Shown here piece after piece: positions 8,698 to 37,625 of a stretch of 48,388 nt of DNA. This stretch comes from Defluviitaleaceae bacterium. GTDB taxonomy: Bacteria > Bacillota_I > Bacilli_A > MOL361 > Turicibacteraceae. The stretch lies in assembly GCA_009778135.1 (NCBI GenBank), contig WRKJ01000102.1, positions 1-48,388 of the forward strand. The letters are read 5' to 3'. The position numbers and the translations under genes were made by a program. Position 1 is the first letter of the stretch; the number at the start of each line of letters is the position of its first letter. Under the pieces are notes generated by a model. That model saw nothing but the letters and a program-made list of their open reading frames with translations, was not told the origin of the DNA and made no database searches.

Positions 8698-8709
8698 CTT
8701 TTAACACTC

Positions 8710-12122: not shown

Positions 12123-12238
12123 AACCATACATTTGCTATTTGTCTATTATATAAACTATGGGCAAATAGCAATGTCGTACATAGAAGCAAATAAAAAGAA
12201 TTAATTTTGTTTCTATGTACGACAAGAAAAGTATGGTT
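12123..12238 (+). ncRNA. Three-way-junction RNA element between peptide and transporter genes
   Basis: The outer stem is AACCATAC (12123-12130) with GTATGGTT (12231-12238). Inside it are two perfect hairpins: TTGCTATTTG (12133-12142) with CAAATAGCAA (12163-12172), and TGTCGTACATAGAA (12173-12186) with TTCTATGTACGACA (12211-12224). This closed three-way fold sits in the 219-bp gap, so it may set the expression ratio of peptide to transporter, or be a small mobile palindrome. Confidence 0.55.
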
Positions 12239-12274
12239 CATGGAAAACAGTAATACAGTATTGGAGGAAGTTAA

Positions 12275-13105: not shown

Positions 13106-13119
13106 GGAGCTAAAAGACT

Positions 13120-15573: not shown

Positions 15574-15585
15574 TTAACTTCAATG

Positions 15586-16371: not shown

Positions 16372-16397
16372 TAGATAGGTTTAAGATTCAGATTATG

Positions 16398-16448
16398 AAT
16401 AATGGTCTTATTTTTACTCATTTTTATAAAAATGAGGCCATTATTTAA
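16398..16448 (+). terminator. Hairpin between secreted protein B and transporter genes
   Basis: AATAATGG at 16398-16405 pairs with CCATTATT at 16438-16445, and TCATTTTT pairs with AAAAATGA inside. It ends in TTTAAATTT. It is probably a partial terminator that keeps transporter expression below that of the peptide. Confidence 0.65.
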
Positions 16449-16471
16449 ATTTAAAAACAGAGTGTGATAGT

Positions 16472-17410
16472 ATGCTAAGAAAGCAAAAATTATTTGTTAT
16501 TTTTAGTTTATTTTTAATGTTAAAGCTTTTTATTTTTTTTTATTTTCAATATTTAATAGCAGAGCAGATGCAAATGTTGGTATCCAATCATCTTTACAGT
16601 ACTTGGCATGTCGTGTTAAATGAATCCGCTGCATCTATTTATGATATTTCTGAATTACTACCAAGCGGTAGTCGTCTTTTTTTTGAGCACACCCAGGACG
16701 GAAATGTACGTACAGTTTATCAAACAAATAATTGGAAACCCCCATTAACAGAAGGTCAATTTTTTGATCAACATACAGCGGACTTTCAAGCCGTTGTAGG
16801 TAGAAATGTAAGGGACAACATGAATGAATCCCGCTATTTTATCATAGATGATTTAAAGTATGACATCGTTGGAATCATTGGAGCAGATTTCCCTTCTCCG
16901 CTAGACAATCTCGTTTTATTAAATCATGTTTCAAACACGCCCTCCCTTCCTATTATTCGTCGGGTCATAGACACAGATCAACCTGGGATCGTCAGACAAA
17001 TCATCGAAAATTTTAGTGGATTTTTAGCAGATGGGTATCAAGAACCAGATTTGATTTTCAATCATCACATTTTTGGACAACTCATACGAGTCAATGTTAT
17101 CCTGATTTCTTTCTTTTTAATCATTCTGATGACCTATAGCTACTTTAAATTGTTTAAACGTGATCATTATATTTACTATTTGTTAGGAAAGCAAAAATAT
17201 AAGATTGGACTCCGCCATATCCTTATACTCACATTCCTCTTTTTTTCTAGCTTATTCGTCATTAAAACAGTTGATTTAATCGTTGGAGATCAAATTATTT
17301 TGAACAATTTTTTTCTTTATTTCATGATTTGGATCATGATTTGCACAATCTATACAGTCATTTTCCTCATAAACAACATAGCTGGAGGGATTTCAAGTGG
17401 AAATAATTAA
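16472..17410 (+). CDS. FtsX/MacB-like membrane protein, short form
   Basis: This is a 312-residue protein with one N-terminal membrane helix, an extracellular domain of about 170 residues and about three C-terminal helices. This is the MacB/FtsX plan, one helix then a large outer domain then three helices. The inner segment contains VVGRNVRDNM and YDIVGIIG, which match the MacB periplasmic-core pattern of FxVVGI strands. No strong ribosome binding site is present (AGAGTGTGATAGT). It overlaps the next gene by 14 bp. It probably pairs with that permease and the downstream ATPase. Confidence 0.65.
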   Translation: MLRKQKLFVIFSLFLMLKLFIFFYFQYLIAEQMQMLVSNHLYSTWHVVLNESAASIYDISELLPSGSRLFFEHTQDGNVRTVYQTNNWKPPLTEGQFFDQHTADFQAVVGRNVRDNMNESRYFIIDDLKYDIVGIIGADFPSPLDNLVLLNHVSNTPSLPIIRRVIDTDQPGIVRQIIENFSGFLADGYQEPDLIFNHHIFGQLIRVNVILISFFLIILMTYSYFKLFKRDHYIYYLLGKQKYKIGLRHILILTFLFFSSLFVIKTVDLIVGDQIILNNFFLYFMIWIMICTIYTVIFLINNIAGGISSGNN

Positions 17411-18800
17411 ACTACTTTATTTTTCCTTACGAAAAAATGGTGTCCTTCAACTTTTAATTGCTGTCTTCACTTTTTTTAGCCTTATCTTTTTAATTACTTT
17501 ATTGCGTTTTTCTCGTCACCATGATCAATTATTAAATGACATAAGTGAGAGAAACGAATTTTTTGAAAATGTCCAAGTATTTCACTTAACAGATGGTCAC
17601 GGTGGCTTTTTTTATGGAGCAGAAGTGCATGAAGAACCGATTTTTTTACAAGCAGACGGCTTGGAAAGGATGAAAGAATTTCACTACAATCTACGTTTAA
17701 GTAATGAATTTTATGTTGCATCCGCTCATACTGGGATGTTTCTTGAAATTGATGCAAGTCAGTTTTTAGGTGGAGAAGCTTTTCACTTTGGCTATGAATG
17801 GGGACTTACAGGTCCACTTGCAGATGGACGGGGCAACTACTTTTATCAAATAAAAGCTGCAAGCCTCGATTATGCCGCTTGGAACTTATCTTCGATGGAA
17901 ATGAAGCATGGTCGTGCATTTCAAGCTGAAGACTTTAGTTTGTTTTCTGGTCGAATTCCTATCATCTTAGGTTACCAATATGCAAATTATTATGAAATTG
18001 GCGATTTAATAACCATGTATTTTCTTGCTTTTCAATTCGACTTTGAAGTCATTGGTATTTTAGCTGAAAACCAGCGATTGTTTAATGAAGTCACAGGTAC
18101 ATATCTTGACTATTCGATCCTTAAACCACTGATTTCTTTCGGAAATCCACTAAACGAAGAAGAGAGAAGGTTTCAATCAATTTATTACAATAATAAGTCT
18201 CTATCTGCTTATATTTTTGTTGATGACACACCAGAAGCTGTTAATCAGATGCATAATATCATTTATACAGCAGCTGCGCATTTAAATATCCCTTACTCAT
18301 TTTCAATGACGGATCACACATTTGTTCTTCATGGTGAAATGGTTAATCTAATTCATCATCACACAGGTGTTATTCATCGATTGTTGATCAATTCGATTTT
18401 ACTGATTGCGCTGATCATTTTATTTTTATCCACGATTAAATATCATCGACAAAAATCTGTTTATCAGGTGCATGCTTTATTAGGTATTTCTAAATCTAAG
18501 CAATGGTTAGCTCTTTTACTAGAAAATTTAATTTTTAACGGTCTTACTGTTTTCATTGCTTTATACTATTCTGTTTTTTATAGCGGGATTATGTATACAA
18601 GTTATCAACGTGCCTTCTTTTCTACTTATGACATATCCAGATGGCCCATCTTTTGGGAAGCTGTGATTTTTGATTCTTTTAGTTTTTATCATCTCTCTTT
18701 ACAGCCTGCTTTAAGCTATAGCCTATTTTTACTTCTCGTTTCAATCATATACCCTACTATTAAAATTCATCAATTGTATAAAGGAGTTCGTTCCAAATGA
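17397..18800 (+). CDS. FtsX/MacB-like ABC permease
   Basis: This is a 467-residue protein with one N-terminal helix, an extracellular domain of about 280 residues and three C-terminal helices. The outer domain has the strand motif FEVIGILAENQRLFNE, typical of MacB-like permeases. A GTG start at 17397 is preceded by GGAGGGA at 6 bases. It ends in an ATGA overlap with the ATPase gene, so the three genes form one translational unit. Such transporters use conformational change for export, signalling or peptide resistance rather than classic uptake. Confidence 0.7.
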   Translation: MEIIKLLYFSLRKNGVLQLLIAVFTFFSLIFLITLLRFSRHHDQLLNDISERNEFFENVQVFHLTDGHGGFFYGAEVHEEPIFLQADGLERMKEFHYNLRLSNEFYVASAHTGMFLEIDASQFLGGEAFHFGYEWGLTGPLADGRGNYFYQIKAASLDYAAWNLSSMEMKHGRAFQAEDFSLFSGRIPIILGYQYANYYEIGDLITMYFLAFQFDFEVIGILAENQRLFNEVTGTYLDYSILKPLISFGNPLNEEERRFQSIYYNNKSLSAYIFVDDTPEAVNQMHNIIYTAAAHLNIPYSFSMTDHTFVLHGEMVNLIHHHTGVIHRLLINSILLIALIILFLSTIKYHRQKSVYQVHALLGISKSKQWLALLLENLIFNGLTVFIALYYSVFYSGIMYTSYQRAFFSTYDISRWPIFWEAVIFDSFSFYHLSLQPALSYSLFLLLVSIIYPTIKIHQLYKGVRSK

Positions 18801-19468
18801 TAGCATTAAAAAACATCACAAGAACATACAAAGTAGGACAACACAAACGCTGTGTTTTAAACGATCTTACACTAGAGATCAAAAAGCATGAATCTATTGT
18901 AATTGAAGGACGTAGTGGATCTGGAAAAACAACGTTACTAAATATTCTAATCGGGTTGGACACCGCATTTACAGGACACTATCAGTTTGAAGAGATGGAC
19001 ATGAGTCATGCAAAGTCTGCAATAAGAGCTAAGTTCCGGCAAGAAAAGCTCGGGATTATCACACAGCACTTTGATTTGCTCGACGATCGGAATGTTTATG
19101 AAAACATTGTTTTAGCGATTCATCATCAAAAATTAAGCGCTGTAGAGAAAAGAAAGCGTATTTCTGAGCTGCTTGATTATGTCAATTTATCTGGCTATGA
19201 AAAGATGCCAGTGAAGCGACTCTCAGGTGGAGAAATGCAACGGGTTGGAATAGCTAGGGCACTAGCGAAACGACCGAAACTCATTGTTGCAGATGAACCG
19301 ACAGGTTCACTTGACGAGCAAACACGAGATGAAGTCTTGACTGTTTTTAAAAAAATGATGCAAGATAAAGTCCAGTTTATTATCGTCACACATGATAAAG
19401 AAGTTTCTGCGATTTGTAATAAAGTCTATCGCTTGCAAGAAGGGAAACTAAAAAATTTATCATCATAG
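18797..19468 (+). CDS. ABC transporter ATPase, LolD/MacB type
   Basis: This is a 223-residue ATPase. It shows Walker A GRSGSGKTT, Q-loop in GIITQHFDLL, signature LSGGEMQR, Walker B LIVADEPTGSLD and switch His in VTHDK. The EPTGSLDE form is typical of the LolD/MacB/FtsE group that pairs with FtsX-fold permeases. It overlaps the permease by 4 bp and has AAAGGAG upstream. It is the only such ATPase in the window, so it could also serve the three FtsX-like permeases at 21.5, 24.4 and 35 kb. Confidence 0.9.
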   Translation: MIALKNITRTYKVGQHKRCVLNDLTLEIKKHESIVIEGRSGSGKTTLLNILIGLDTAFTGHYQFEEMDMSHAKSAIRAKFRQEKLGIITQHFDLLDDRNVYENIVLAIHHQKLSAVEKRKRISELLDYVNLSGYEKMPVKRLSGGEMQRVGIARALAKRPKLIVADEPTGSLDEQTRDEVLTVFKKMMQDKVQFIIVTHDKEVSAICNKVYRLQEGKLKNLSS

Positions 19469-20420: not shown

Positions 20421-20579
20421 ATGGGAGAGTATTTGTTTGGACTTGTGCAATTATTTGTAGGGGCATTTGTTTCTGCAGCTGCAAAAGTTCTTGCTAAACG
20501 CATGTTTGGCAAAAAGAGCAAGGAAAAACCCACCTTTACGCACGAACAACGCAACAAAGGTGGGAAATCTAAAAACTAG
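20421..20579 (+). CDS. Small membrane peptide, holin-like toxin candidate
   Basis: This is a 52-residue peptide with GAAGGAGGTGAACCCT upstream of the ATG. It has one hydrophobic helix (LFGLVQLFVGAFVSAAAKVL) and a long basic tail. Plan and size resemble type I toxins and holin-like toxins of Bacillota. The leader can fold TTCCC with GGGGAA next to the ribosome binding site. The 3' part of the gene contains a perfect 9-bp inverted repeat (CCCACCTTT at 20529-20537, AAAGGTGGG at 20556-20564). It lies alone, with its own promoter and terminator. Toxicity is inferred, not shown. Confidence 0.55.
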   Translation: MGEYLFGLVQLFVGAFVSAAAKVLAKRMFGKKSKEKPTFTHEQRNKGGKSKN

Positions 20580-20936: not shown

Positions 20937-21090
20937 CAAATGAAAACGCCGGACTTTTAGTAAATGGGAAGATATAGGCATCATTCCTTATTTACTATGG
21001 TCATATCTTGGAGATGCTGTAAAGCAGGAAGGAACAGGTGGTTCTATTGATTGAGTGAAGCGCATCAACTTAAAATTTTAAAAAATGGAG
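20937..21090 (+). promoter_or_regulatory. Structured leader of secreted protein C
   Basis: The 160-base leader can form TAGTAAAT (20958-20965) with ATTTACTA (20990-20997), extended by GGGAA with TTCC. It can also form the competing AAGATAT (20969-20975) with ATATCTT (21003-21009), or GCATC with GATGC at 21013-21017. Alternative pairing suggests a regulated leader. It does not resemble the 11-kb leader. Confidence 0.45.
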
Positions 21091-21099
21091 GAATGGCTC

Positions 21100-21492
21100 A
21101 TGAAAGAAACAAAAAAACTAATTTTATCTTCTTTGGTAACACCTTTAATCGTTGGAAGTCTCTTTTTCTTACCAACGAGTGTTGTTGAGGCGAATACGTG
21201 TACTCAGAATAACAGCCACGTAGGTTGTACTGTGCTTTCACCAGAAGTTAGCGTAAGTGGACAGACATGGAACTATCGTGGCAGAATCCAAGCCTCGCGC
21301 TCAAGTGTAGGAAGTCTGTGGGCACGTGTTGATTCACACCAAGTTGGACAGACCATTGGAGGTTCAGCGGGCACCATTACAGGATCACAAAACACACCTG
21401 TTGGATCATCAAGTGTGACTGCCCTTTCAGTATGGGTAATGGATCGAAATGATGGTAGCACTATGAGGACGATTGGCAGAACTAGCAATTAA
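21100..21492 (+). CDS. Small secreted protein C
   Basis: This is a 130-residue protein with a signal peptide (KLILSSLVTPLIVGSLFFLPTSVVEAN). Two cysteines near the mature N-terminus (NTCTQNNSHVGCTV) could form a disulphide. The rest is beta-rich and Ser/Thr/Gly-rich (VSVSGQTWNYRGRIQASRSS). I use the ATG at 21100 because GGAGGA precedes it; an earlier in-frame ATG overlaps that site. It has its own strong promoter, a terminator-like hairpin, then FtsX-like permeases. The plan repeats the A and B modules. Function is unknown. Confidence 0.65.
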   Translation: MKETKKLILSSLVTPLIVGSLFFLPTSVVEANTCTQNNSHVGCTVLSPEVSVSGQTWNYRGRIQASRSSVGSLWARVDSHQVGQTIGGSAGTITGSQNTPVGSSSVTALSVWVMDRNDGSTMRTIGRTSN

Positions 21493-21534
21493 AAAAAATT
21501 AGCACAGGTGGTGGATGCTGTGCTAATTTTTTTC
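21493..21534 (+). terminator. Terminator between secreted protein C and permease
   Basis: AAAAAAATTAGCACA pairs with TGTGCTAATTTTTTT. It lies directly after the stop codon and only about 13 bp before the next gene, so read-through must feed the permease genes. Confidence 0.8.
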
Positions 21535-21546
21535 AAGGAGTGAGAA

Positions 21547-23106
21547 ATGATGAATCTTTTAAAGCGTACTCAAATCAATATTTTGAGAAATAGCAGCAAA
21601 TCATTGTTATTGCTTGTTTTGACCATTCTTCTCGGTATTGTTGTTTCTGCTGCCTTAATCGTAACTCAAGCCATTGAGCAAACGACGAGACAAGCAAGGC
21701 AAAACCTTCCCTCGATTGCAACGATTGCTGTGGATATTGAAGCCGTGTTAAATGCTGGTGATGCTGCATTAGATATCGGCTATGTCGACGCTGTCACGTT
21801 AAATGAAATCGCCGCATTACCGTATGTTTTACAAGTTGATGAATCGCTAATTTGGGGAGCTTTAACGAGATATGATACTTTTTGGCCTGACATTGAATCG
21901 GATTATTTTATCCGAGATGAGAATCTAACAGGCAATTTAAATGGCGAGTTCAATCAGCTAAGAGCTAGAGGTGTGTCTCATGTGCATTCGATTCACTTGA
22001 CAAAGGGGTTGTTTACTTTGGTAAATGGTCGATTGTTCGACGCGAACGAGCTGGAGCCCCAAATAGAATTATTCGAACAAACGCCTGTCATCATCCCACG
22101 AACGTTCGCAGAATTAAATCATTTAGCAGTCGGAAGTTTAATGACATTATACATCGATCATTTCCAACTCCCTGAAGGTGCTGAAATTCCAGAAGGTGGC
22201 TTTTACTTTGAAGATGCTTTTAATCATCCGTATAACAACTGGATTAATGTCCCCTATCATTTCGTTGTGATTGGTATTGTTGATGTCGATTACACCATCG
22301 CAACTCATCAGGAAGCGTTTTTGATGCAAGAGGTCGTATATAACACGATTTTTATGCCCAACTGGAAAATCGAATCCATATGGAGAGAACAGTTTCCGAC
22401 AGCTTTACTTTATCGAGAAATTTTTAATGATACAGGTCGAAGTCTAGAAGATCTTTTAACACCAACTGTTTTCTTTGTCATCGATGATGGCTTGAATTTA
22501 GCATCGTTTCGTGTTGCTGCTGATGCATTACTGCCTGAATTTTATCGCATAGACACTTGGGAGCAAGTTGTAACACCTTTAGAAACTGGATTAAGTCAAA
22601 TAAGAGGCATCGTTCAAAATGCCATGAGGGGTGGTATTGTTGCGATGGGAATCATACTGGTTTTATTGTTGTCTTTGTTTATACATGAGCGTCGGTACGA
22701 AATGGGCGTGTATATCGCATTAGGACAAAAGAAACGACATGTTTTTTTGCAGTTGATGATAGAAACAGTTGTGATATGTTCTGTCGGTATGCTCATTGCG
22801 GTATGGATAGGGAATTTAATTGCCGACGAAGTGAATCAACATATGATAAGGACAGCCATCACACAAGAAGATATTTGGCGAACAGGAACGAATGAACTAT
22901 TTAGTGAACTAGAGTTTCAAGGCATTGGACGTGAGTTAACAGTTGAAGAACTGGTTGATTTTTTTGATGTTTCTTTAAACGTAAGGACGATTCTGATGTT
23001 CTTCTTAATCGGAATCGGGACAGTTATTTCCTCATTGGCTATCGCTTCTTATTTTATCTTTAAACTCAATGTGAAAAATCTCTTAATGAGGGGGAAGATT
23101 GGATGA
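21547..23106 (+). CDS. FtsX-like ABC permease
   Basis: This is a 519-residue protein with one N-terminal helix, an outer domain of about 320 residues and three C-terminal helices (GGIVAMGIILVLLLSLFIHERRYEMGVYIALGQKKRHV onward). ERRYEMGVYIALGQKK is the coupling segment typical of MacB/FtsX permeases. It begins in ATG-ATG with AAGGAGTGAG upstream. Paralogs lie at 24391 and 35033. No ATPase is adjacent. It overlaps the next gene by 4 bp. It probably exports or responds to an envelope-active peptide, perhaps secreted protein C. Confidence 0.75.
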   Translation: MMNLLKRTQINILRNSSKSLLLLVLTILLGIVVSAALIVTQAIEQTTRQARQNLPSIATIAVDIEAVLNAGDAALDIGYVDAVTLNEIAALPYVLQVDESLIWGALTRYDTFWPDIESDYFIRDENLTGNLNGEFNQLRARGVSHVHSIHLTKGLFTLVNGRLFDANELEPQIELFEQTPVIIPRTFAELNHLAVGSLMTLYIDHFQLPEGAEIPEGGFYFEDAFNHPYNNWINVPYHFVVIGIVDVDYTIATHQEAFLMQEVVYNTIFMPNWKIESIWREQFPTALLYREIFNDTGRSLEDLLTPTVFFVIDDGLNLASFRVAADALLPEFYRIDTWEQVVTPLETGLSQIRGIVQNAMRGGIVAMGIILVLLLSLFIHERRYEMGVYIALGQKKRHVFLQLMIETVVICSVGMLIAVWIGNLIADEVNQHMIRTAITQEDIWRTGTNELFSELEFQGIGRELTVEELVDFFDVSLNVRTILMFFLIGIGTVISSLAIASYFIFKLNVKNLLMRGKIG

Positions 23107-24239
23107 GGACTGAAAACAAGAAAATAAAAAAAATCCTGGCTCTAATCTTACTTATTTGTGCGATTTTTGCTGTTATGACGCTTATCTCGTTATCCTCAGC
23201 TAGACCGCTTATGAGGATACACTTTGATTCGGAAAGTTGGCTTCGTGAGTCAGCCTTTAACTTTGAGGTTGATGATTGGCGAGACATTCCATTTATTAGA
23301 CCCCACATTGCACGAACCCTTCAAGAATTGCCAGAAATTTATACGTTAAATTATTCTTATTCAGCGTTACTTATGAGTGCCACACTAGATCGTTATGTAG
23401 AGAATGAACTACCATTTGGAAATATTATCTTCGACGTTGAGACATTCGGTGTCATTGGCGTGTCGACGGAAAACCTTCCTCATGTGAGTTCAGGAAGTAT
23501 TGAGATTGTGGAGGGTCGACAATTTCTAGAAAATGAACTGATTGATGAATCCGACACAATTGGGGTGATGCTTTCGTCTTTGTTAGCAGAAACAAATGCG
23601 TTATCAATTGGCGATGAGATTCAACTTTATACTTTTTCAGAGGTGCAAGCATCATGTTTTTTGGATGAAACTGAACCTGAATATGTTATCAACAATGATT
23701 TCGCACTTGATACAATAACGATCAATGCAGTCATTATCGGTTTGTTTGATGTTCCTGAAACGAGACCCTTTAACGCTGTAAGTGCAAGACAAATAAGTGA
23801 TGATCGCGAAGAAGCACTCAACACGCTTTATTTCCCGAATTGGGCTTTAAAGTTACATTTTTACAACGTTCATCAAGCACAAATCAATTCAAAAAAAGCG
23901 ATATGTGACGGGATTTTACCAGCTGATTTTGATGTGTACTTAGAAGACATTTTAAGTGGCGAAGGAATCGAAGTGGATGTTGTTTTTGAATTAAATGAAC
24001 AGACGAATATCCAAAATTTTATGGCAGATGAGCATCATTTACTGACAGATGATGCCCAATCTTTTGTCGTTATACATGATGCAGGAAGCAGACAACATCA
24101 AACGACCATTTTTTCACCACAAGTGATCATCATCATGTGTCTTTTACTAATAGCATCCGTTATCGTTGTCATTTTTTATCTCAAGCAAAGAAAATCAAAT
24201 GAATTTAATTTTCACCATGAGCATATGAAGAAGCAATAA
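23103..24239 (+). CDS. Extracellular MacB-core-like membrane protein
   Basis: This is a 378-residue protein with one N-terminal helix, a large outer domain and one C-terminal helix (VIIIMCLLLIASVIVVIFYL) followed by a short basic tail. The outer domain contains strand motifs like ITINAVIIGLFDV that match the periplasmic core of its FtsX-like neighbour, but the three permease helices are missing. It starts in a 4-bp overlap with that permease. It may be a truncated permease that partners it. Confidence 0.6.
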   Translation: MRTENKKIKKILALILLICAIFAVMTLISLSSARPLMRIHFDSESWLRESAFNFEVDDWRDIPFIRPHIARTLQELPEIYTLNYSYSALLMSATLDRYVENELPFGNIIFDVETFGVIGVSTENLPHVSSGSIEIVEGRQFLENELIDESDTIGVMLSSLLAETNALSIGDEIQLYTFSEVQASCFLDETEPEYVINNDFALDTITINAVIIGLFDVPETRPFNAVSARQISDDREEALNTLYFPNWALKLHFYNVHQAQINSKKAICDGILPADFDVYLEDILSGEGIEVDVVFELNEQTNIQNFMADEHHLLTDDAQSFVVIHDAGSRQHQTTIFSPQVIIIMCLLLIASVIVVIFYLKQRKSNEFNFHHEHMKKQ

Positions 24240-24265
24240 AAATGTTGACATCTCGTGTTTATCTG

Positions 24266-24294
24266 TTGACATTTGTACGTTAATGCTGTAAAAT
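24266..24294 (+). promoter_or_regulatory. Sigma-A promoter of the second FtsX-like permease
   Basis: TTGACA (24266-24271) and TAAAAT (24289-24294) are 17 bp apart. A second TTGACA lies at 24245-24250. Downstream, AATGATGATCATT is a near-palindrome that may be an operator. Confidence 0.75.
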
Positions 24295-24330
24295 GACGTT
24301 TATGATCTAAATGATGATCATTAAAAATAG

Positions 24331-24372
24331 GCTAGAAGTAAAAAGTACGCTGCTTTTTATTTTCTAGCTTTT
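24331..24372 (+). promoter_or_regulatory. Leader hairpin between promoter and permease gene
   Basis: CTAGAAGTAAAAAG pairs with CTTTTTATTTTCTAG around TACGCTG. It lies between the promoter and the ribosome binding site and is a candidate attenuator. It has no clean T run, so translational or processing roles are possible. Confidence 0.5.
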
Positions 24373-24390
24373 CATATAGGGAGGATCGCT

Positions 24391-25950
24391 ATGACGATTG
24401 TAAAACGTGCTTTTTTAAGCATGATGAGAAGTCCTGTGAAAAATACGCTTATTTTGTTATTAGTGGTCGTTTTAAGTGTCTTTTTATCATTGGGCATGTC
24501 GACTCGCACTGCGATTCATCATATGGAAATGCATTTAAGGGAAAGGTTACCCGCCATTGCGACGTTAACCCATGATGCGAGAGCCACACAGGCTAAAACG
24601 CCTTCATTAGAAATGATTGCAGCAGTCGGCGCGTTGCCTTATGTCCGTGCATACGATTTTAGAAGTTGGACCTTTTTATTTTCTGAAACACTAGAATGGG
24701 CCATTCCTTCCATCGATGATGCCTTCATTCCTGAAGGCATGACAAAAGAAGAAATGATTCTTTCTTACAATCTAGGTGGTGTTACTTCTCTCGGTGGTTC
24801 TGTTAATCGATTCCAAGTTGGTGGGGTTAATCATCCTTATTTAACGGACATTCAAGCTGGATTGATTGCGCTGGATTCAGGTCGATTGATGACAGAAATT
24901 GAAATTGAGACAGGCGCACATGTTGCCCTAGTCTCTCGGGATTTTGCAGAAGTGAATCAATTAGAAGTTGGTGCGATCATTTCTTTGGAAAATAATTTAT
25001 TTGATCATGAAGCCATCGCCGAGTATGGTTCATGGACAAATGGTACGTTATTTAGTTCCAACTATTGGCACATGGATGCGTTTAAAATAGCGAATCAACT
25101 GATTGATCTTGAAGTCGTTGGCATTTTTGATATCCAACGTGATTTTATCTACCTTTATTACGCTCAAGAGATGATGGACATCGTCTTTTTTGGCGTGGAA
25201 CTTTATAACCGGATTTACATCCCACACCGCTTACAAATGGAATTGGTTCATTATTTGACACAATATGAACCTGATTTATATGCTGCCTATGGGATGACGG
25301 AAGATCATCCTTTAATGCTTGAACCGATGTTTCTTTTATCTGATCCACGAGATGCCCAGCAATTTGTTCAAGCTGCACAAGCAGTTCTACCAGAAAATTG
25401 GTTCATTGAAGATACGAGTGCAGCGTTTGCACCTTTTATCAGTTCAATGGACCATATGCTGTGGCTTGCAAATTTAATTGTTATCGGTGCCGTTGGGACA
25501 GCGGTTAGCATCTTGACTTTACTATTTACGTTGCTCATACATGGAAGACGCCATGAAATAAGCATTTATCGGGCATTGGGAGAAACAAAGCAGAAAATGC
25601 TTGGGCAACTGTTGGTTGAAGTAGCTGCTGTTGCCACGGTCGCGATGATGATCGGCTTATTCATTGGCAATCACTTAGCCCATACCATCTCTAGAGACAT
25701 GCTAACCCATGAACTTATTCGACAAGAGCAAGAAAATCCATCTCCATTTGCTAATCAGCTTCCTGTTGAACTCATTCTTTTTACACCCGAATCCATGTCC
25801 ATAGAAGAACTCATTGATACTTACGATGTCTCATTAAACTGGGCGAGCACAACCTTGTTTTTTAGTGTCCAGTTTGGAAGCATCCTATTTTCTACCACAA
25901 TCTCTGTGATCTATTTGATCCGATTAAATCCAAAAAAGATTTTGTTCTAA
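24391..25950 (+). CDS. FtsX-like ABC permease
   Basis: This is a 519-residue paralog of the 21547 protein with the same length and plan. Its N-terminus (SMMRSPVKNTLILLLVVVLSVFLSLG) enters helix 1, and a long outer domain with the repeated strand VVGIFDI follows. The C-terminal coupling segment is GRRHEISIYRALGETKQKM. It has its own promoter and an attenuator-like leader, with no secreted-peptide gene between it and the promoter. GGGAGG precedes the ATG. The divergence between paralogs implies an old duplication. Confidence 0.75.
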   Translation: MTIVKRAFLSMMRSPVKNTLILLLVVVLSVFLSLGMSTRTAIHHMEMHLRERLPAIATLTHDARATQAKTPSLEMIAAVGALPYVRAYDFRSWTFLFSETLEWAIPSIDDAFIPEGMTKEEMILSYNLGGVTSLGGSVNRFQVGGVNHPYLTDIQAGLIALDSGRLMTEIEIETGAHVALVSRDFAEVNQLEVGAIISLENNLFDHEAIAEYGSWTNGTLFSSNYWHMDAFKIANQLIDLEVVGIFDIQRDFIYLYYAQEMMDIVFFGVELYNRIYIPHRLQMELVHYLTQYEPDLYAAYGMTEDHPLMLEPMFLLSDPRDAQQFVQAAQAVLPENWFIEDTSAAFAPFISSMDHMLWLANLIVIGAVGTAVSILTLLFTLLIHGRRHEISIYRALGETKQKMLGQLLVEVAAVATVAMMIGLFIGNHLAHTISRDMLTHELIRQEQENPSPFANQLPVELILFTPESMSIEELIDTYDVSLNWASTTLFFSVQFGSILFSTTISVIYLIRLNPKKILF

Positions 25951-26057: not shown

Positions 26058-27446
26058 TTAAGTTTCTTTTTTGTTAACGACTAAGAAAATAGCAGCGATA
26101 CCCATAATGACGCTAAAGAAAGCTAAATACCACCAAGCCCCGAGTGCATTGGTATAAAATACCATGTAAATTAACGCTAACGCCCCGATAATTGACAGTA
26201 AAGGCATGATGAAACGGTTGAAAACATGCCATTCTTTTTGTTTAACCATGACGGCAACGAAAACAGGTATATACAAGCCCATTAAAGTCACAGGTGCCAA
26301 GCTTGAAACAGCAAAGTTAACGTCTCCAAACCATCGTCTGTGATAAAGATAAGGATAACCACTCATATCTTGTGCATTAGCAAAGACGATAAAGAAGATG
26401 ATCCCACAAAACAGCAAAGAAATGGCAGCACTTGTTGGTGGCATGTCTGTCTTCGCATCAACTTGCTTGACATAATCAGGTGACGGTCCTTTACCTCGAA
26501 TAGCCAATGCATAAAAAGCACGACTTCCAGCCATCATGGCACTGTTCATGGCACCTAGACACGAAATAATGACAAAGACCATCAAAACACTTCCAAATGC
26601 ATCACCAAAAACACGCTGAAAAGCAGCTGTAACACCACCACCCGTTGCTAAAGTCTCCACGTCAATGGCACCAAAAACACCGATTGTATATAAAACATAA
26701 ATGGCAATAATCACCATCGAACCCACGACAATGGCTCTTGGCAAATTTTTCTCACGGTTTTTAATTTCACTACTCATCATCAAAACTTCTTCACTGCCTG
26801 CATAAGCAAAAACAGTTGATAAGATCGCATAAAATAAAGGATTAGAAACAGCATTTTCTGCCGCAACGACAAAAGTCAAATTCTCAGCTGTCGTACCATT
26901 TACGATGCCGACAATCAAACCCACAATACCCATTAAAATCAAAGGAATGACTTTAATGAAGGTTGTACTTACTTGAAAAAAGCCAGCGAGCTTAGGAGAA
27001 ATAACATTCATCACATAAATACCGACCAGATAAACACCTGCTAACATCCAAACAGGACCGCTCGTAAAGACCATGTCCCAGCCAAAAAGGGTCGCCGTAA
27101 ACCTCGCTGTTACCCAAGCAAGGACAGCAACAAAAGCAGGATAAAGAATCGTTCCTAAAAACCAACCAAGGAAATAAGAATATGTTTTTCCTAATAGATC
27201 ATCTGTATATTCCAGTAAACCACCCATTCCTGCTTTGCCACTCGCCAATTGTCCCCAAACCCACATCATGACAAACATAATGGCACCACCAATGAGCCAT
27301 GCAATAATCGCTTCTGTTAAATGACCGCCAACACGTGCAAAAATCGTTTCGTTAACGAAAAAGATGCCGGATCCAATCACTGCACCGACGACTAAGCAAA
27401 TAGCTGTTAATAGACCGTATTTTTTTTGAAGATTTTGTTCCAACAT
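26058..27446 (-). CDS. APC-family amino acid permease
   Basis: This is a 462-residue protein with about 12 helices. The first helix carries VVGAVIGSGIFFVNE, the GSGIF motif that contacts the substrate backbone in APC transporters. An E-x-x-LPRAI segment follows later (KNREKNLPRAIVVGSMVI), another family mark. It imports or exchanges amino acids; the exact substrate cannot be read. I use the ATG at 27446 (AGAGGTG upstream) instead of the earlier in-frame ATG at 27494. It lies downstream of the TPR/peptide pair with a terminator between. Confidence 0.85.
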   Translation of the reverse strand: MLEQNLQKKYGLLTAICLVVGAVIGSGIFFVNETIFARVGGHLTEAIIAWLIGGAIMFVMMWVWGQLASGKAGMGGLLEYTDDLLGKTYSYFLGWFLGTILYPAFVAVLAWVTARFTATLFGWDMVFTSGPVWMLAGVYLVGIYVMNVISPKLAGFFQVSTTFIKVIPLILMGIVGLIVGIVNGTTAENLTFVVAAENAVSNPLFYAILSTVFAYAGSEEVLMMSSEIKNREKNLPRAIVVGSMVIIAIYVLYTIGVFGAIDVETLATGGGVTAAFQRVFGDAFGSVLMVFVIISCLGAMNSAMMAGSRAFYALAIRGKGPSPDYVKQVDAKTDMPPTSAAISLLFCGIIFFIVFANAQDMSGYPYLYHRRWFGDVNFAVSSLAPVTLMGLYIPVFVAVMVKQKEWHVFNRFIMPLLSIIGALALIYMVFYTNALGAWWYLAFFSVIMGIAAIFLVVNKKET

Positions 27447-27566
27447 AAACACCTCTGATATCAATTTTGAATGGTTGAGCATTGAAAGGTTCAATTAGGT
27501 TTATTCTAACACCTTGCAAGAAAAAATGCAACCCTCCATCCAGTCGAAAAGGAAATGAAGGTAAAT

Positions 27567-27598
27567 AAAAAAGCCACTTGAAGAAAAATGGCTTTTTT
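27567..27598 (-). terminator. Terminator of the TPR/peptide operon
   Basis: AAAAAAGCCA pairs with TGGCTTTTTT. It ends the leftward transcript of the peptide gene. It works in both directions by sequence. Confidence 0.8.
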
Positions 27599-27629
27599 AT
27601 TGGAAATGAGTTGGTAGAACCAGGTTGAG

Positions 27630-27727
27630 CAAAACGCCCAACCTCATCCTTTTAATTAAGAAACACTTTTGATCTTAAAGGTTAACCTTCATAACCTTCT
27701 GCACCCGGTGGCCAAAACGCCCAACCT
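27630..27727. repeat. 15-bp direct repeat CAAAACGCCCAACCT
   Basis: Perfect copies lie at 27630-27644 and 27713-27727. The right copy encodes GWAF of the 25-residue peptide. The left copy forms a hairpin (AGGTTGGGC / GCTCAACCT) after the peptide stop codon. It suggests a decayed second peptide unit. Confidence 0.6.
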
Positions 27728-27759
27728 GATCCTTGGATCAATTGATAGATATATAGCAT
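27682..27759 (-). CDS. 25-residue peptide coupled to the TPR-like protein gene
   Basis: GGAGGTGAGGAATAATG shows a strong ribosome binding site and a one-base overlap with the upstream stop codon (TAATG). The product has a short hydrophobic N-terminus (MLYIYQLIQ) and a Trp- and Gly-rich end, GSGWAFWPPGAEGYEG. Length, position after a helical receptor-like gene and translational coupling match Phr-type or SHP-type signalling peptides of the RRNPP systems. There is no classical signal peptide, as in SHP/XIP-type precursors. No homolog is recognised. It could instead be a small antimicrobial peptide. Confidence 0.55.
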   Translation of the reverse strand: MLYIYQLIQGSGWAFWPPGAEGYEG

Positions 27760-28505
27760 TATTCCTCACCTCCTTTTAATGCTAAGTAGCCTTTTGATGT
27801 TGTATAAAAACGAACTTCACTGATCACCAAATTGATCACATCTTCAAGATAATCAGATTCATCTTCGAACTTCTCCATAAGCTTGGCAAGTTCTACCTCG
27901 TCTTGTTTTAAAATCGCATGTCTGATTTCAGTCACTTGTAGTGGAAGCTCCAACTCGTAATGACGTTCTTCTAATTCTCTTAATTTATGAAACCACGTTT
28001 CAAATTCTTCAGCAATGAACGCAGCATCTGTATCCATTTCAAAATACTTGGCATATAAGAATCGGGCACACAGATTACATGCAAGTCCACCTTCCAAAAC
28101 ATCAACATTTTTAGTCACTCTAAAATCTGCACTTCTTTCCGACCCTTTAATGGCTAATGTCTGTGCTTCCTCAGCATCTGAGGCAAGATATATTGAACCA
28201 ACAAGTAATTTTAATTCATAATAATTCCAATCATCTGACGCCAACAAACGTTTAAAAAATGGTTGCAAACGAGTTCTCGCTTGGGTCATATTCGATGTTT
28301 GTGCATAAGTCTCATTGGCATCAAGAAAATGAATCGCATTTTTTGCTAACAAGACATTTTCATCTTCTAACGGTGCTAATAATAATTCTTCCCCTCTCAA
28401 AAATTCTAGTAACTCCTCTCGAATTTCAAGAGATTTCTTAACATCGTGATTGCCACCAATGTCAAACATTTTTTCCAATACTCCGACTAGTTTCATTTGA
28501 ATCAT
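27759..28505 (-). CDS. Helical TPR-like protein, Rap-like receptor candidate
   Basis: This is a 248-residue all-helical protein without an HTH. It begins directly with helix pairs (VLEKMFDIGGNHDVKKSLEIREELLEFL). Successive 30-40 residue helical units contain the hydrophobic and alanine/glycine spacing of TPR-like folds, for example YYELKLLVGSIYLASDAEEAQTLAIKG. AAGGAGGG precedes the ATG at 28505. It is overlapped by one base by a 25-codon peptide gene. In Rap and related RRNPP families such receptors bind the linked peptide and block a partner protein. The lack of an HTH points to Rap-like protein binding. The family assignment is an inference from fold pattern and context. Confidence 0.5.
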   Translation of the reverse strand: MIQMKLVGVLEKMFDIGGNHDVKKSLEIREELLEFLRGEELLLAPLEDENVLLAKNAIHFLDANETYAQTSNMTQARTRLQPFFKRLLASDDWNYYELKLLVGSIYLASDAEEAQTLAIKGSERSADFRVTKNVDVLEGGLACNLCARFLYAKYFEMDTDAAFIAEEFETWFHKLRELEERHYELELPLQVTEIRHAILKQDEVELAKLMEKFEDESDYLEDVINLVISEVRFYTTSKGYLALKGGEE

Positions 28506-28966
28506 AAAACTAAAATCCCTCCTTTTTAGCTACTATCAGTATATCATAAAATTTTAAAAAAACATCTCTGACGCCCATTTTCTTTTTTTATCAATTTTAA
28601 GATTTTTTTATCAATTTTTAAATGCTATGAAGTCCTAATTTCATCTTTATTGAAGTAGATTTGTGATTTAATTATCATATAGAACGACTCTTATGTACGC
28701 CTACGGTAAATCCTGAAAATGTAAACGTATCTAAAAAATGCCATTATCAATTATTGACCTTTATACGACATATTTAGTCAAATATAGACCATTCAGCCTT
28801 TAAACTCATACATTCGCATCGACAATTGAGAATTTGATTTTTTTATTTACAATGCGCTAAGACTTAAGACTTAGATAGATTCCTTCGCAAGTCCTGTTAT
28901 TATCGCGTCCATCTATGGTATAATAAGTTATCTATAAGCAGTATAAAAGGAAGGGGCTTTTGAATC
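28506..28966. other. Intergenic region upstream of the DUF2807-lia operon
   Basis: No gene is seen. CTAAGACTTAAGACTTAG at 28856-28873 is an imperfect dyad and may be an operator. TGGTATAAT at 28916-28924 is an extended -10, with no clear -35 at 17 bp. Confidence 0.5.
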
Positions 28967-29716: not shown

Positions 29717-29758
29717 TGCGTTTAGCGCTACCTATCATTTAGTAATCAGGTGATGATG

Positions 29759-30514
29759 ATGAATAAAATAAAAGAATTATTGAAACGTCAATACACCAAA
29801 TCAGAAGCGCTGGGTATCCTACTTTCAATTGCTGCAGTCGGATTCGTCATTGATATCCTGCTCAGGCGTTTCAGTGTCCTCTTGCTTGCATTAGCTATTT
29901 TTTTGATCATCACTGGCTATCAACAATTCAAACAGAAAAATACCTTCACCGCATATTTTTTAATCGCTATTGGGAGTAGCTTCCTCCTCTTTACCCTTTT
30001 CACTTCGTTTTCTTTCTCATTGCTCGTGGCGACCCTCGTGATTTATTACAGCTACCAACTTTTTAGAAGTTCCGCTCACAAATCGAACATTAACGTCAAT
30101 ATTCAACCTAACCCCATGGGTACGAGACCCTATGTCCAAGTCGATCCTTACTTCAAAAATAAACTCGTTGGTGAATATCGCCATTTTGAACAAGATTATG
30201 CCATTGAAGATATCAACCTTCAGACTGGCTTCGGCGATGTTCAGATCGACCTTTCTGACAGGATCATCCCGCAAGGTGAAACCGTTGTACTCATTCGCGG
30301 CATGGTTGGAAATATTTACCTGAATGTCCCTTCTGATGTCGGCCTATCTGTTCAGCTGTCTTTGCTTTGTGGAAAAATAACATTATTGGAAGATGGGAAA
30401 ACAGCCTTCAATGTGACTCAAAAATATCAAAGTGTTGACTATCAAGAAACTTCTAGAAAAATTAAGATTGTGATTAGTTTATTTGTGGGAGATATCGAGG
30501 TGAAGCACCGATGA
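29759..30514 (+). CDS. liaF: LiaF-like membrane regulator
   Basis: This is a 251-residue protein with an N-terminal membrane part of about four helices and a C-terminal DUF2154-type domain (about residues 130-251). The latter has the strands YRHFEQDYAIEDINLQTGFGDVQIDLS and IRGMVGNIYLNVPSDVGL that mark LiaF. LiaF keeps the LiaS kinase off in the absence of cell-envelope stress. I use the ATG at 29759 because AGGTG sits 6 bases before it; ATGs just upstream are also possible. It is followed by liaS with a 4-bp overlap. Confidence 0.85.
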   Translation: MNKIKELLKRQYTKSEALGILLSIAAVGFVIDILLRRFSVLLLALAIFLIITGYQQFKQKNTFTAYFLIAIGSSFLLFTLFTSFSFSLLVATLVIYYSYQLFRSSAHKSNINVNIQPNPMGTRPYVQVDPYFKNKLVGEYRHFEQDYAIEDINLQTGFGDVQIDLSDRIIPQGETVVLIRGMVGNIYLNVPSDVGLSVQLSLLCGKITLLEDGKTAFNVTQKYQSVDYQETSRKIKIVISLFVGDIEVKHR

Positions 30515-31518
30515 AAAGTTTCAGATGGATTTATGTGAAATACTCAATGCTCATGTGCTTCACGGTTGCATTACTGTCTTTTATTATTTTTTTAGTAAGT
30601 GTCCATCCGTTCGTTCCGGTCCAAGAGATGATCGAAACATTTCTGCTGGTAATCGGGCTTAGTTTGTCAATTGGCGCGACAGTTGGTATTTCCATTAGCC
30701 TTTACATCAACAAGCCACTTCATCAAATGTCTCATTTCTTATCCGAAGTCGAACGCGGGAATACGCCACATTTGCCAACTGATCGAATGTTTAAGGAATT
30801 TAAAGCTTTAGAAACGTCCATTGTCAACCTTTCTGAAAAGACAGCCGAGCAATCATTGATGATGCAAAGAAAAACCAATGAATATGCTGAAGAAAAGCAA
30901 CATATTGAAGAAGCGGCCGTTGCTGTTGAACGGGGTCGATTGGCGAGAGAACTTCATGATTCTGTTAGCCAACAATTGTTTGCCATGTCCATGATGTCTG
31001 CTGCGCTTCATGCTGGTATGCCTGATGAGGAACCACTTAAAGCCAACATGGCGAAGCTTGAGCACATGGCTGTTCAAGCACAAAGTGAAATGCGGGCTTT
31101 GTTATTACATCTGCGACCGATTCAATTAGAAGGAAAGCAATTGGTCGTTGGGATTCGTGAACTGTTAACTGAATTGTCTGCGAAGCAAAATCTAGATGTT
31201 CGTTGGCAATTAGATGATTTGGCATTTGAACGAGGTGTTGAAGATCATCTATTTCGAATTTTACAAGAAGCCATTTCTAATACACTTCGCCATGCAAAAG
31301 CGTCTAAATTAGAGATTAGTTTGAAACGCTCGGATCCACTTGCCATGATGAGGATTTTTGATAACGGCATTGGTTTTAATAAAGATGACCGAAAAGTCGG
31401 TTCATACGGCCTTGAATCTATGAAAGAGCGTGCTGAAGAAATTGGCGGCACATTAAAAATCATGAGTTTAAAAGGGACAGGTACACAAATTGAAATTAAA
31501 ATTCCACTCAAGAGGTGA
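30511..31518 (+). CDS. liaS: LiaS-like sensor histidine kinase
   Basis: This is a 335-residue kinase with two N-terminal helices enclosing a very short outer loop, as in intramembrane-sensing kinases. A HAMP-like region and coiled coil follow. The HisKA_3 motif RLARELHDSVSQQLFAM carries the phosphorylated His. The ATPase has ILQEAISNTLRHA (N-box) and DNGIGF (G-box). It should phosphorylate LiaR under lipid II or membrane stress. It lies in the operon with 4-bp overlaps on either side. Confidence 0.9.
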   Translation: MKSFRWIYVKYSMLMCFTVALLSFIIFLVSVHPFVPVQEMIETFLLVIGLSLSIGATVGISISLYINKPLHQMSHFLSEVERGNTPHLPTDRMFKEFKALETSIVNLSEKTAEQSLMMQRKTNEYAEEKQHIEEAAVAVERGRLARELHDSVSQQLFAMSMMSAALHAGMPDEEPLKANMAKLEHMAVQAQSEMRALLLHLRPIQLEGKQLVVGIRELLTELSAKQNLDVRWQLDDLAFERGVEDHLFRILQEAISNTLRHAKASKLEISLKRSDPLAMMRIFDNGIGFNKDDRKVGSYGLESMKERAEEIGGTLKIMSLKGTGTQIEIKIPLKR

Positions 31519-31523
31519 TGGCA

Positions 31524-32156
31524 ATGAAACAAATCAAAGTCTTATTGGTTGATGATCACGAGATGGTTCGCATGGGTGTTTCTGCTTATTTATCAACGCA
31601 AGCCGATATTGAAGTCATCGGAGAAGCACCCAATGGTAAAATTGGAGCAGAAATGGCATTGAAGTTGAGACCAGATATTATTTTAATGGATTTAATGATG
31701 GACGTGATGGATGGAGCAGAAGCGACAAGTGAAATCATCAAAGAATGGCCCGAAGCTAAAATTATCGTCGTCACCAGCTTCCTGGATGATGAAAAGTTAT
31801 ATCCCGTTATTGAAGCCGGTGCCACCAGTTATTTGCTTAAAACATCAAGTGCTGGTCGTATTGCTGAAGCCATTCGAGCAACTTGTGACGGACAGTCTAT
31901 CCTTGAACCAAAAGTGGCAGAAAAGATGATGACACATCTGCGAAAAGAGACCCCTTTACATGAAGATTTGACTGAACGTGAATTAGAAGTTTTATTACTC
32001 ATGGCACAAGGTAAGCAAAACCAAGAAATTGCTGATGAGCTGTTTATTGCATTAAAAACAGTTAAAACGCATGTCAGTAACATCTTGAGTAAACTTCAAG
32101 TTTCAGATCGAACACAGGCTGTTATTTATACGTTTAAACACGGATTGATTGAATGA
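31524..32156 (+). CDS. liaR: LiaR-like response regulator (NarL/LuxR type)
   Basis: This is a 210-residue protein. The receiver has the acidic pair in LLVDDHEMV, the phosphoacceptor in DIILMDLMMDVMDG and the Lys in YLLKTS. The C-terminal LuxR HTH has LTERELEVLLLMAQGKQNQEIA and KTVKTHVSNILSKL. AGAGGTG sets the start at 31524 rather than the upstream GTG. It is the last gene of the DUF2807-liaFSR operon and would switch on envelope-stress genes, including its own operon. Confidence 0.9.
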   Translation: MKQIKVLLVDDHEMVRMGVSAYLSTQADIEVIGEAPNGKIGAEMALKLRPDIILMDLMMDVMDGAEATSEIIKEWPEAKIIVVTSFLDDEKLYPVIEAGATSYLLKTSSAGRIAEAIRATCDGQSILEPKVAEKMMTHLRKETPLHEDLTERELEVLLLMAQGKQNQEIADELFIALKTVKTHVSNILSKLQVSDRTQAVIYTFKHGLIE

Positions 32157-35032: not shown

Positions 35033-36451
35033 TTACTTTTGTAATAATAATGATTTTGGTTCTAGTTTTAATGCATACCAAATAGGAAGAATAGTGGAGA
35101 TTAGCACACTCATCAGGCTAATCAATCCAAAGATTGAAATGACAATACCATTCAAAGATACATCAGAAAGTGCGAGCGATTGTTCAACTGTGAGTTCCGT
35201 TGGAATATGAAGCGTCAATTCTAATGGCGTCTCTCCAGGTGTAAAATGGTGCGTTGCTAATTGTTCAATAAGCTGCTGTTCGAACAAATGATTTGTTATG
35301 ACCTGTGAAAAGAGATGCCCCATAAAAATAGCGACAACAAGACCACTTATTGTAATCATGCCAATTTCTAACAAGATTTGAAAGATAATTTTTATCTTTT
35401 TGTCTCCCAAAGCGCTATAAATACCCATTTCATAACGCCGATCTCGTAAAAACAAGAGTAAAACCAATGTTAGAATGAAAATAGAAGCAACGATCACCGT
35501 CAACTGAATCGCACTTGCAATTTCTACAACGACATCCATTGAGTTAACAATCGGTGAAAAGACAGCTTCATCTATTCCACCAACTATCCAGTCACTAGGC
35601 AGCAAGTCTGACGCTGCGTAAGCGAACACTTCTAAATCACGCGGACTATGAAGCACAAAAAGCGTATCCAAAAAAGGTTCTTCTCTAAAAGCACCTCCTT
35701 GTCCCAAATAACGGAAAGTCTCTTCATCAGCTTCAATCATAGCGTTTTTTTCAAACATTAACATGCTTTCTGCTACACCAAAAGGCATATAAAACAGAAT
35801 AGGATAAATCCTATCCTCCTCCACAGGATCAAAAATACCAACGATTTTAAATTCTAATAATCGTTTTGACAACACAAAGTCTTCATTAAATCGATCTGAC
35901 CAGTCTCCTTGCCATCTATAGTCATGGGCAATATTGGCAATTTCAATCGTGGATCCGATGCTTAAATCATTCATTAAAGCAATACGCCTTGGAATCATCA
36001 TGACCAGTGCATCAGTATCTATTTCTTCTTGTGTGAAAACTCTGCCTTCGACTAATGAAATCAGCCCCGCTTCCACATCTGCAATGTTAGGATTATTCAC
36101 ACCCCAAGCTGTAAAAAATCCCGGATCCATCGTATCTATCCAACTCAATTCTTGACTATAAAAAAACGTACTCATCGTAAAATCATAGGCGCTCACATAA
36201 GACAAATTCCCAATTGAAGTAATTTCTTCCCTTGTGGGTTGTCCCCATCCAAAGTTTAAATCCCCATCATAGACAAGGGTCGCAACAGATGGCAACTGCA
36301 TCAATAAACGTGTCTCTGTCGCAACCATTGCTTGGCTCATAGAAATGCCACTTAATAAAAAACTACCTAACAAGATCATCAAAAATAACAACGAGAAACT
36401 CTTGACAGGCTGCCTGATAACGTTAATCATTGCCCGTTTAAATATACCCAT
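35033..36451 (-). CDS. FtsX-like ABC permease
   Basis: This is a 472-residue paralog of the 21547 and 24391 permeases: one N-terminal helix, a large outer domain and three C-terminal helices. The coupling segment is DRRYEMGIYSALGDKKIKI. It is the last gene of a leftward set with a lipoprotein and a secreted SH3 protein. No ATPase is encoded nearby. The ribosome binding region is unusual: a run of eight G residues follows the lipoprotein stop and ends 5 bases before the ATG, so slippage in that tract could change expression. Confidence 0.75.
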   Translation of the reverse strand: MGIFKRAMINVIRQPVKSFSLLFLMILLGSFLLSGISMSQAMVATETRLLMQLPSVATLVYDGDLNFGWGQPTREEITSIGNLSYVSAYDFTMSTFFYSQELSWIDTMDPGFFTAWGVNNPNIADVEAGLISLVEGRVFTQEEIDTDALVMMIPRRIALMNDLSIGSTIEIANIAHDYRWQGDWSDRFNEDFVLSKRLLEFKIVGIFDPVEEDRIYPILFYMPFGVAESMLMFEKNAMIEADEETFRYLGQGGAFREEPFLDTLFVLHSPRDLEVFAYAASDLLPSDWIVGGIDEAVFSPIVNSMDVVVEIASAIQLTVIVASIFILTLVLLLFLRDRRYEMGIYSALGDKKIKIIFQILLEIGMITISGLVVAIFMGHLFSQVITNHLFEQQLIEQLATHHFTPGETPLELTLHIPTELTVEQSLALSDVSLNGIVISIFGLISLMSVLISTILPIWYALKLEPKSLLLQK

Positions 36452-36456
36452 CTCGA

Positions 36457-36464
36457 CCCCCCCC
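36457..36464 (-). repeat. G8 homopolymer in the permease ribosome binding site
   Basis: Eight consecutive G (C on the plus strand) lie directly after the TAA of the lipoprotein gene and before TCGAG-ATG of the permease. In AT-rich DNA this is rare. It is the only likely Shine-Dalgarno region. Confidence 0.7.
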
Positions 36465-37625
36465 TTATGTTAATGTCACAAATTGAATCTGATGATCTTC
36501 AAGAAACACCCCAGGACCGCTAAGTGCTAACCTTGTGTAAATCACATACGAGCCTTCTGCAATCGGAAAGATTTCAAAAGAATTTGAAAGATGCATGCGT
36601 TCAAGCTCTTCTACTGTAAACATTTCAGCACCACTAACGGTTAATGGAATCTCTATTTCCATCTCGTTAACAAGGATACCATTTAAATCATACATTCTAA
36701 AAAGAGATGCTGCTTCGTTGACGGTAACAAGATGAGAACCATCAAAAGAAAAATGTGCCCAGATACTTTCTTCTTCCTCTAATTGAATGATGTGACTAGA
36801 CATGCTGTAAACATCAAATAGGATCACCTCATGATGAAGCGCAAAACTACTTGAAGGCGACTCAGTTATGAGTACCTGAGCGTCTCTAAAATCTAAATGA
36901 CCATACCAAAAATTCTCTTTCTCAAAGATGTGTGTTTCACCTGTTTCTAAATCAAGAATCCCATATCTGCTCAACACGCTCCCAGCATGAAAATCCGCAA
37001 TAAAATCAGTGACAAAAATTTGATTTTCATCCACAAATTGATGCATGATATGGATCTGTTCATCAATTTCAGCAAGGATCTCTATTTCCCCAATGTGTAA
37101 GTTAAATCTTACAGGGTTAACAATCGTACTTGATAAGTTATCAGGCCCTGCTTCTAGTACATAAGCAATCAATTCTCCTTCAACCACTTGTAAAAATCCC
37201 ATCCATAGCGCTGATACTTCCCCATCATCATAAAAGAGCGTTTCAATCACTTCTAATTGCTCGTTGAAAATAACGATACGAGCCGCTTCATGGTTGATGC
37301 TCACGACATGTGCTGCATAATAACCATTTTCCAAATCCCAAACGCCACCAAATAGGTACATCTCACCTAAATCATAACTTGCAACTATTTCTCCTGTTGT
37401 TAAATCCACTAATGAAAATTCATTTGAGAAAGTTCCCGCTTGATGTGTCGAATGTAGTATATTAGATACATTTTTCATGACCTCTTCAAGTTCATCATCG
37501 ATAACTATTTCTATTGTGCCGCTCTCAGATCCCGTACTTTGTTCATTACCTAAATCTCCATTTTCAGTGTTGCAAGCAGTTAAAAAGAGCAACATTGCGA
37601 TTGTTAATCCTGATATCTTTCCCAT
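36465..37625 (-). CDS. Beta-propeller-like lipoprotein
   Basis: This is a 386-residue lipoprotein with a lipobox (LFLTAC, Cys about 18). After an acidic linker, residues 45-386 are beta-rich with repeating units such as FSLVDLTTGEIVASYDLGEM and YGILDLETGETHIFEKENF. These resemble blades of a WD40/YVTN-like propeller. GAAGGAG precedes the ATG. It sits 13 bp upstream of the FtsX-like permease and may be its extracellular partner. No enzyme motifs are seen. Confidence 0.65.
   Translation of the reverse strand: MGKISGLTIAMLLFLTACNTENGDLGNEQSTGSESGTIEIVIDDELEEVMKNVSNILHSTHQAGTFSNEFSLVDLTTGEIVASYDLGEMYLFGGVWDLENGYYAAHVVSINHEAARIVIFNEQLEVIETLFYDDGEVSALWMGFLQVVEGELIAYVLEAGPDNLSSTIVNPVRFNLHIGEIEILAEIDEQIHIMHQFVDENQIFVTDFIADFHAGSVLSRYGILDLETGETHIFEKENFWYGHLDFRDAQVLITESPSSSFALHHEVILFDVYSMSSHIIQLEEEESIWAHFSFDGSHLVTVNEAASLFRMYDLNGILVNEMEIEIPLTVSGAEMFTVEELERMHLSNSFEIFPIAEGSYVIYTRLALSGPGVFLEDHQIQFVTLT

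Follow-up and report, generated by a model that had tools for sequence, protein, structure and literature searches.

A probable RRNPP-type receptor–pheromone pair in Turicibacteraceae with an Rgg-like receptor predicted to lack the HTH

ComR, the receptor of the ComR–ComS (XIP) system, has an HTH and directly activates comS, while the Phr propeptides of the Rap–Phr system carry a Sec leader. In the RopB clan, communication peptides that lack a leader have been described (PMC10518010). Rap proteins have been described as the only RRNPPA members without an HTH (PMC9765709), and an RRNPPA receptor of Anoxybacter fermentans, subfamily 17, has been reported as HTH-less (PMC12700828). Subfamily 17 belongs to clan B (nine-TPR), like Rap, whereas the case presented here would be a loss in clan A, the five-TPR clan, for which no HTH loss is described in the literature that we compared.

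The window, that is, the whole stretch of 48,388 nucleotides that was analysed, comes from a genome of the Turicibacteraceae (G000) and carries a gene for a receptor candidate followed by a short open reading frame (ORF) for a Trp-rich peptide. The pair shares with Rgg–SHP and RopB–LCP (clan A) the predicted C-terminal peptide-binding fold, the profile register, and a short hydrophobic or aromatic peptide gene adjoining the receptor gene. However, the window receptor has no HTH and cannot bind DNA in the Rgg manner, the peptide gene is co-directional and lies 3' of the receptor gene with a one-base overlap, and the peptides are 21–25 aa long and rich in Trp and Pro. The likeness to Rap–Phr lies in the missing DNA-binding domain, an overlapping or adjacent peptide gene after the receptor gene, an expected protein partner, and extra propeptide copies, which are known there as “chatterers” (PMC9765709). 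Nevertheless, Rap, at about 370 aa, combines an N-terminal three-helix bundle with a nine-TPR-type fold, whereas the window receptor, at 248 aa, is predicted to have the shorter five-TPR form. Its peptide seems to differ from Phr in having no evident leader; neither a charged N-terminus nor a long hydrophobic stretch was seen by eye. ComR–ComS has in common with the window pair the clan A fold and a short Trp-containing peptide without a classical leader, but differs from it by the HTH of ComR. If our inference is right, the pair would be Rap–Phr-like in its working and next to Rgg by its fold, and we have filed it as neither.

The features of the locus are collected in Table 1. As an earlier note on this DNA had claimed, the peptide and receptor ORFs overlap by one base (TAATG), with a strong ribosome binding site for the peptide inside the receptor gene. 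The Shine–Dalgarno (SD) sequence of the peptide, AAGGAGGTGA, is an 8-nt match at a spacing of about 8 within the final codons of the receptor gene. Translational coupling of the peptide gene to the receptor gene is part of our best explanation, which we hold as a whole to be probable. The note had also reported a 15-bp repeat after the gene; the repeat is present but larger, 22 nt with one mismatch. Its second copy has lost the SD, the start codon, and the N-terminus (a 36-nt gap against a second locus, which lies elsewhere in this genome on contig C92). The stem-loop and T-run are kept at C92, and so are the tandem 20-bp repeats, which stand with equal spacing upstream of that peptide-only locus. 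Taken together, the tandem repeats and the weak −35 of the promoter suggest an operon that may need an activator.

Table 1. Features of the receptor–peptide locus and of the neighbouring cassette, with positions in the window
Feature	Position	Strand	Remark
Cassette of a gene for a 135-aa secreted protein and three FtsX/MacB-like permease genes	21085..25950	+	
Stem-loop and T-run that probably terminate the receptor–peptide transcript	27564..27601	-	16-bp arms, 94% complementary
Repeat copy 2, relic of a second peptide unit	27630..27651	-	One mismatch to copy 1; in-frame TGA
Trp-rich peptide ORF, 25 aa, MLYIYQLIQGSGWAFWPPGAEGYEG	27682..27759	-	Core YQLIQGSGWAFWPP conserved in two paralogous copies
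Repeat copy 1, 22 nt	27713..27734	-	Encodes QGSGWAF within the peptide ORF
Peptide SD (AAAAGGAGGTGA) and peptide start, in the 3' end of the receptor gene	27759..27779	-	One side of the C92 deletion junction
Receptor candidate of 248 aa with about 12 helices, Rgg-type (RRNPP clan A) without an HTH	27759..28505	-	Structure model and homologue
Promoter/leader region	28518..28833	-	317 nt with 82% identity to the sequence preceding the two peptide ORFs without a receptor on C92
Extended −10-like box TGATATACT, no good −35	28545..28552	-	Position approximate; inferred from the sequence; kept at C92
Two tandem 20-bp repeats, possible activator site	28583..28622	-	Upstream of the receptor promoter

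The receptor has no sequence match in Pfam, NCBIfam, PHROGs, or PDB sequences, and none to Rgg_C (PF21259) or the NCBIfam Rgg models up to E=10, so that its likeness to Rgg at the sequence level is a profile–profile one only. The lead to the family was given by a weak profile match (G034:C1), which is a true HTH-Rgg with the same W-YY-E-L motif. When the receptor was aligned with seven Rgg proteins of related genomes by hhalign, we obtained a probability of 84% and a single-comparison E of 7e-6, in a register that places query residue 9 on template column 65, just past the Rgg HTH. AlphaFold (AF2) predicted all-helical structures for the window receptor (pLDDT 81, pTM 0.80) and for its homologue in a genome of the same genus, G001 (pLDDT 85.5, pTM 0.83), both models being built from the same two sequences. 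In a Foldseek search of 350,542 PDB chains, the first three ranks for the window receptor were Rgg144, Rgg2, and RopB, with Rap, ComR, and AimR within the top 20, while the best ten for the homologue were all clan A RNPP receptors or regulators (Rgg2, Rgg144, NrpR, RopB, ElrR, PlcR, ComR, and an uncharacterised Listeria regulator). The best E values were modest (0.003–0.03), at a TM-score of about 0.6 and a probability of 1.00. Because the top list is made up of one small family, which is hard to obtain by chance, the receptor is best read as a predicted Rgg-type peptide-binding domain without the HTH. In the models, both homologues have the five-TPR, all-helical C-terminal peptide-binding domain of clan A (Rgg/ComR/PlcR/PrgX). 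There is no N-terminal XRE-type HTH: the model opens with TPR-like helices, Pfam gives no HTH match, and an upstream extension could not hold an HTH because the open frame has only 256 codons.

The structure prediction agrees with the description in the earlier note of an all-helical, TPR-like protein without a DNA-binding domain. For the note, a protein without a TPR-like fold would have refuted its own reading; the fold found by Foldseek is TPR-like/RNPP. Its proposal of a Rap/Phr-like pair stood in part. The idea of a cytoplasmic, HTH-less pheromone receptor with a cognate peptide is backed by the fold, the peptide conservation, and the gene order, but both fold and register agree with Rgg (five-TPR clan A, normally with an HTH) rather than with Rap (nine-TPR clan B), and the Rap structures match the window receptor less well than Rgg does (TMq 0.41–0.56). 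Rap is a functional analogy only, through the absent HTH.

A pattern search found the peptide DNA also on contig C92 of the same genome. The identity of the two loci is 77% in the peptide–terminator region, in addition to that in the 317-nt promoter region, and the receptor is absent from C92 exactly between the receptor SD and the peptide SD, two sites that have AAAAGGAGG in common. Since the flanking genes differ, C92 represents a second locus and not an allele. In base composition C92 fits the genome of the window, both being contigs of a fragmented, probably metagenome-derived assembly. Two intact peptide ORFs, MVYLYQLIQGSGWAFWPPNVEG and MHVYQLIQGLGWAFWPPGSVN, are present on C92 and have the core YQLIQGxGWAFWPP in common with the window. 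As judged from this intact double-peptide locus, the second repeat of the window is a dead second peptide unit, which bears out the relic suspected in the earlier note. When the 14 core codons of the window were compared with those of the second C92 copy, four changes were synonymous and one was non-synonymous (P=0.007 under neutrality). This predominance of synonymous changes makes it probable that the peptide is translated and selected at the protein level. Just upstream of the C92 peptide locus (9189-10557, −), two toxin–antitoxin-like pairs were recognised by eye (Phd/ParE-like).

The sole homologue of the receptor is encoded in G001 (contig C11, WRAJ01000011.1) and is 32% identical over its whole length; G001 is of the same genus, within the taxonomic family Turicibacteraceae. 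An SD-preceded ORF of 23 aa, MKLFYCRLINGIGVMPRIWEPWT, starts 6 nt past the stop of the G001 receptor and is followed by a terminator-like stem-loop. A short propeptide gene with its own ribosome binding site adjoins the receptor gene in both genomes that carry the receptor; this and the paralogous C92 locus speak against a chance arrangement. The residue similarity of the window and G001 peptides is marginal (P=0.04), and what is kept is the arrangement and an aromatic, proline-containing tail. A broken peptide frame beside a conserved helical protein would have refuted the pairing put forward in the earlier note; next to the helical protein of G001, the only homologue, the frame is open. Among 395 class-level and 392 phylum-level genomes, only these two same-genus members of the receptor family were found, and phages, plasmids, and viral contigs gave no relatives. 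Weak matches, which by eye concerned large proteins of unrelated kinds such as MutS2-like and SecA-like ones, were rejected after the frames had been read. The peptide DNA pattern returned only the three copies of the own genome when the 395 genomes were searched, and 11 viral-contig frames that matched it were unrelated chance matches.

These results make it probable that the two genes form an RRNPP-type receptor–pheromone pair, with a receptor of the Rgg-like five-TPR form from which the N-terminal HTH has been lost. Against the pairing stand the C92 peptides, which occur without an adjacent receptor. We lean somewhat towards a more specific reading, in which a clan A RRNPP receptor has lost its HTH independently and is now protein-targeting like Rap, with a cognate leaderless pheromone rich in Trp and, apart from the pair, a sender-only locus where the receptor gene was lost, or was earlier absent, between the two SDs.

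By analogy with the known systems, the peptide, which has no obvious leader, would be exported, may be cut down to some portion of the C-terminal half that includes or surrounds GWAFWPP, and would be re-imported through an oligopeptide permease. A complete Opp/Dpp-type oligopeptide importer operon is present in the same genome (G000:C85). The peptide would then bind the concave TPR surface of the receptor, with GWAFWPPGAEGYEG as the candidate ligand for the groove, and alter the binding of a partner protein, as in Rap. Because the receptor has no HTH or other DNA-binding domain, it would have to act through such a partner. Two response regulator systems are encoded near the pair, a LiaFSR-like system (divergent, 29750-32156) and an AgrC/AgrA-like pair (7459-9450), and their response regulators are candidate partners. 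If this is true, the switch from a DNA-binding to a protein-targeting pheromone sensor happened again in another branch, the five-TPR clan, and the HTH-less receptor offers for study an Rgg sensor domain that nature has reduced to a minimum. Turicibacteraceae, for which no system of this kind was found in the literature library searched, would also gain peptide signalling, along with a sender locus that lacks a receptor.

The short ORF could also be a Trp-rich leader peptide, at which ribosome stalling and alternative hairpins of the repeats would control the amino-acid permease gene at 26061-27446 (−). The ORF does lie upstream of the permease gene and runs in the same direction, and the stretch that separates the two holds a terminator and alternative stems. 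However, no such ORF accompanies the 84% identical permease orthologue of the sister genus, which carries a lysine riboswitch (RF00168, 116 bits); this makes lysine rather than tryptophan the probable substrate. Moreover, no such permease gene is next to the other peptide loci, which are followed by a secreted-protein gene in G001 and by a convergent, unrelated gene on C92, and in two genomes the peptide sits 3' of the receptor gene. With the leader ORF not conserved upstream of the permease, genome comparison led us to reject attenuation, which we regard as very improbable. The riboswitch of the orthologue is at 8406-8579 (−) of G002:C191, while an Rfam scan of the window locus gave only sub-threshold chance matches, with no lysine riboswitch at the window permease.

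Another explanation takes the peptides for small secreted antimicrobials or toxins, like leaderless bacteriocins, and the helical protein for their immunity protein or antidote. It fits the near-identical tandem peptides of C92 and a region rich in secreted-protein/ABC cassettes, but leaderless bacteriocins are usually longer than these sparsely charged peptides of 21–25 aa, those on C92 have no adjacent immunity gene, and the RNPP fold predicted for the helical protein is soluble in its solved members; we consider it improbable. Somewhat less improbable, though still unlikely, is that the HTH-less protein is a decaying Rgg remnant or a peptide sink without an output of its own. Rgg proteins dimerise via the C-terminal domain and an intact Rgg is encoded in the same genome (G000:C94), with which the protein might heterodimerise, and the second peptide copy of the window is dead. 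In G001, on the other hand, the HTH-less form is full length at the divergence noted above and its coupled peptide is kept, and no Rgg was found in that genome, which is 75% complete. Conservation of the HTH-less form and the peptide in a second species argues for an old, selected gene and not for recent decay. Both the bacteriocin–immunity and the decaying or heterodimerising Rgg explanations are less likely than a receptor–pheromone pair.

The genes regulated by the putative receptor–pheromone pair may include the adjacent secreted-protein/FtsX-permease cassettes. In G001, a similar cassette follows immediately downstream of the receptor–peptide pair. Such genes are numerous in this genus and its sister genus, with 24 FtsX matches in this genome and 23 and 28 in two relatives, whereas the genomes from another genus of the family gave 0-4. 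We rejected a strictly orthologous relation of the neighbouring cassettes, as the G001 cassette is closer to one (G000:C101) that has no receptor than to that of the window. Since the cassettes are numerous and not strict orthologues, the link between receptor and cassette is suggestive and the regulon a guess. The link gains weight because two HTH-Rgg genes also adjoin FtsX genes: the true HTH-Rgg of the same genome (C94) is directly upstream of an FtsX permease gene, and the one found in the sister genus (G002:C208) and a secreted-protein/FtsX cassette are transcribed divergently. Between the latter Rgg and its cassette, at 9436-9483 (−), there is an SD-preceded ORF of 15 aa, MTLLNWFYPRLFPWV, which is likely a leaderless pheromone of the sister genus; beside the Rgg gene on C94, no convincing peptide ORF was found.

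Several further genes were observed in these regions. Small secreted proteins are densely encoded together with FtsX-like or other ABC permeases at 11654-19468, 21085-25950, and 35033-37625 of the window. A cationic amphipathic ORF of 52 aa with an 8-nt SD (MGEYLFGLVQLFVGAFVSAAAKVLAKRMFGKKSKEKPTF..., 20421-20579, +) looks like a bacteriocin and has no Pfam match. In G001, a stand-alone LytTR regulator of 172 aa (C28, 7097-7615, +) is encoded directly upstream of a secreted-protein/FtsX cassette.
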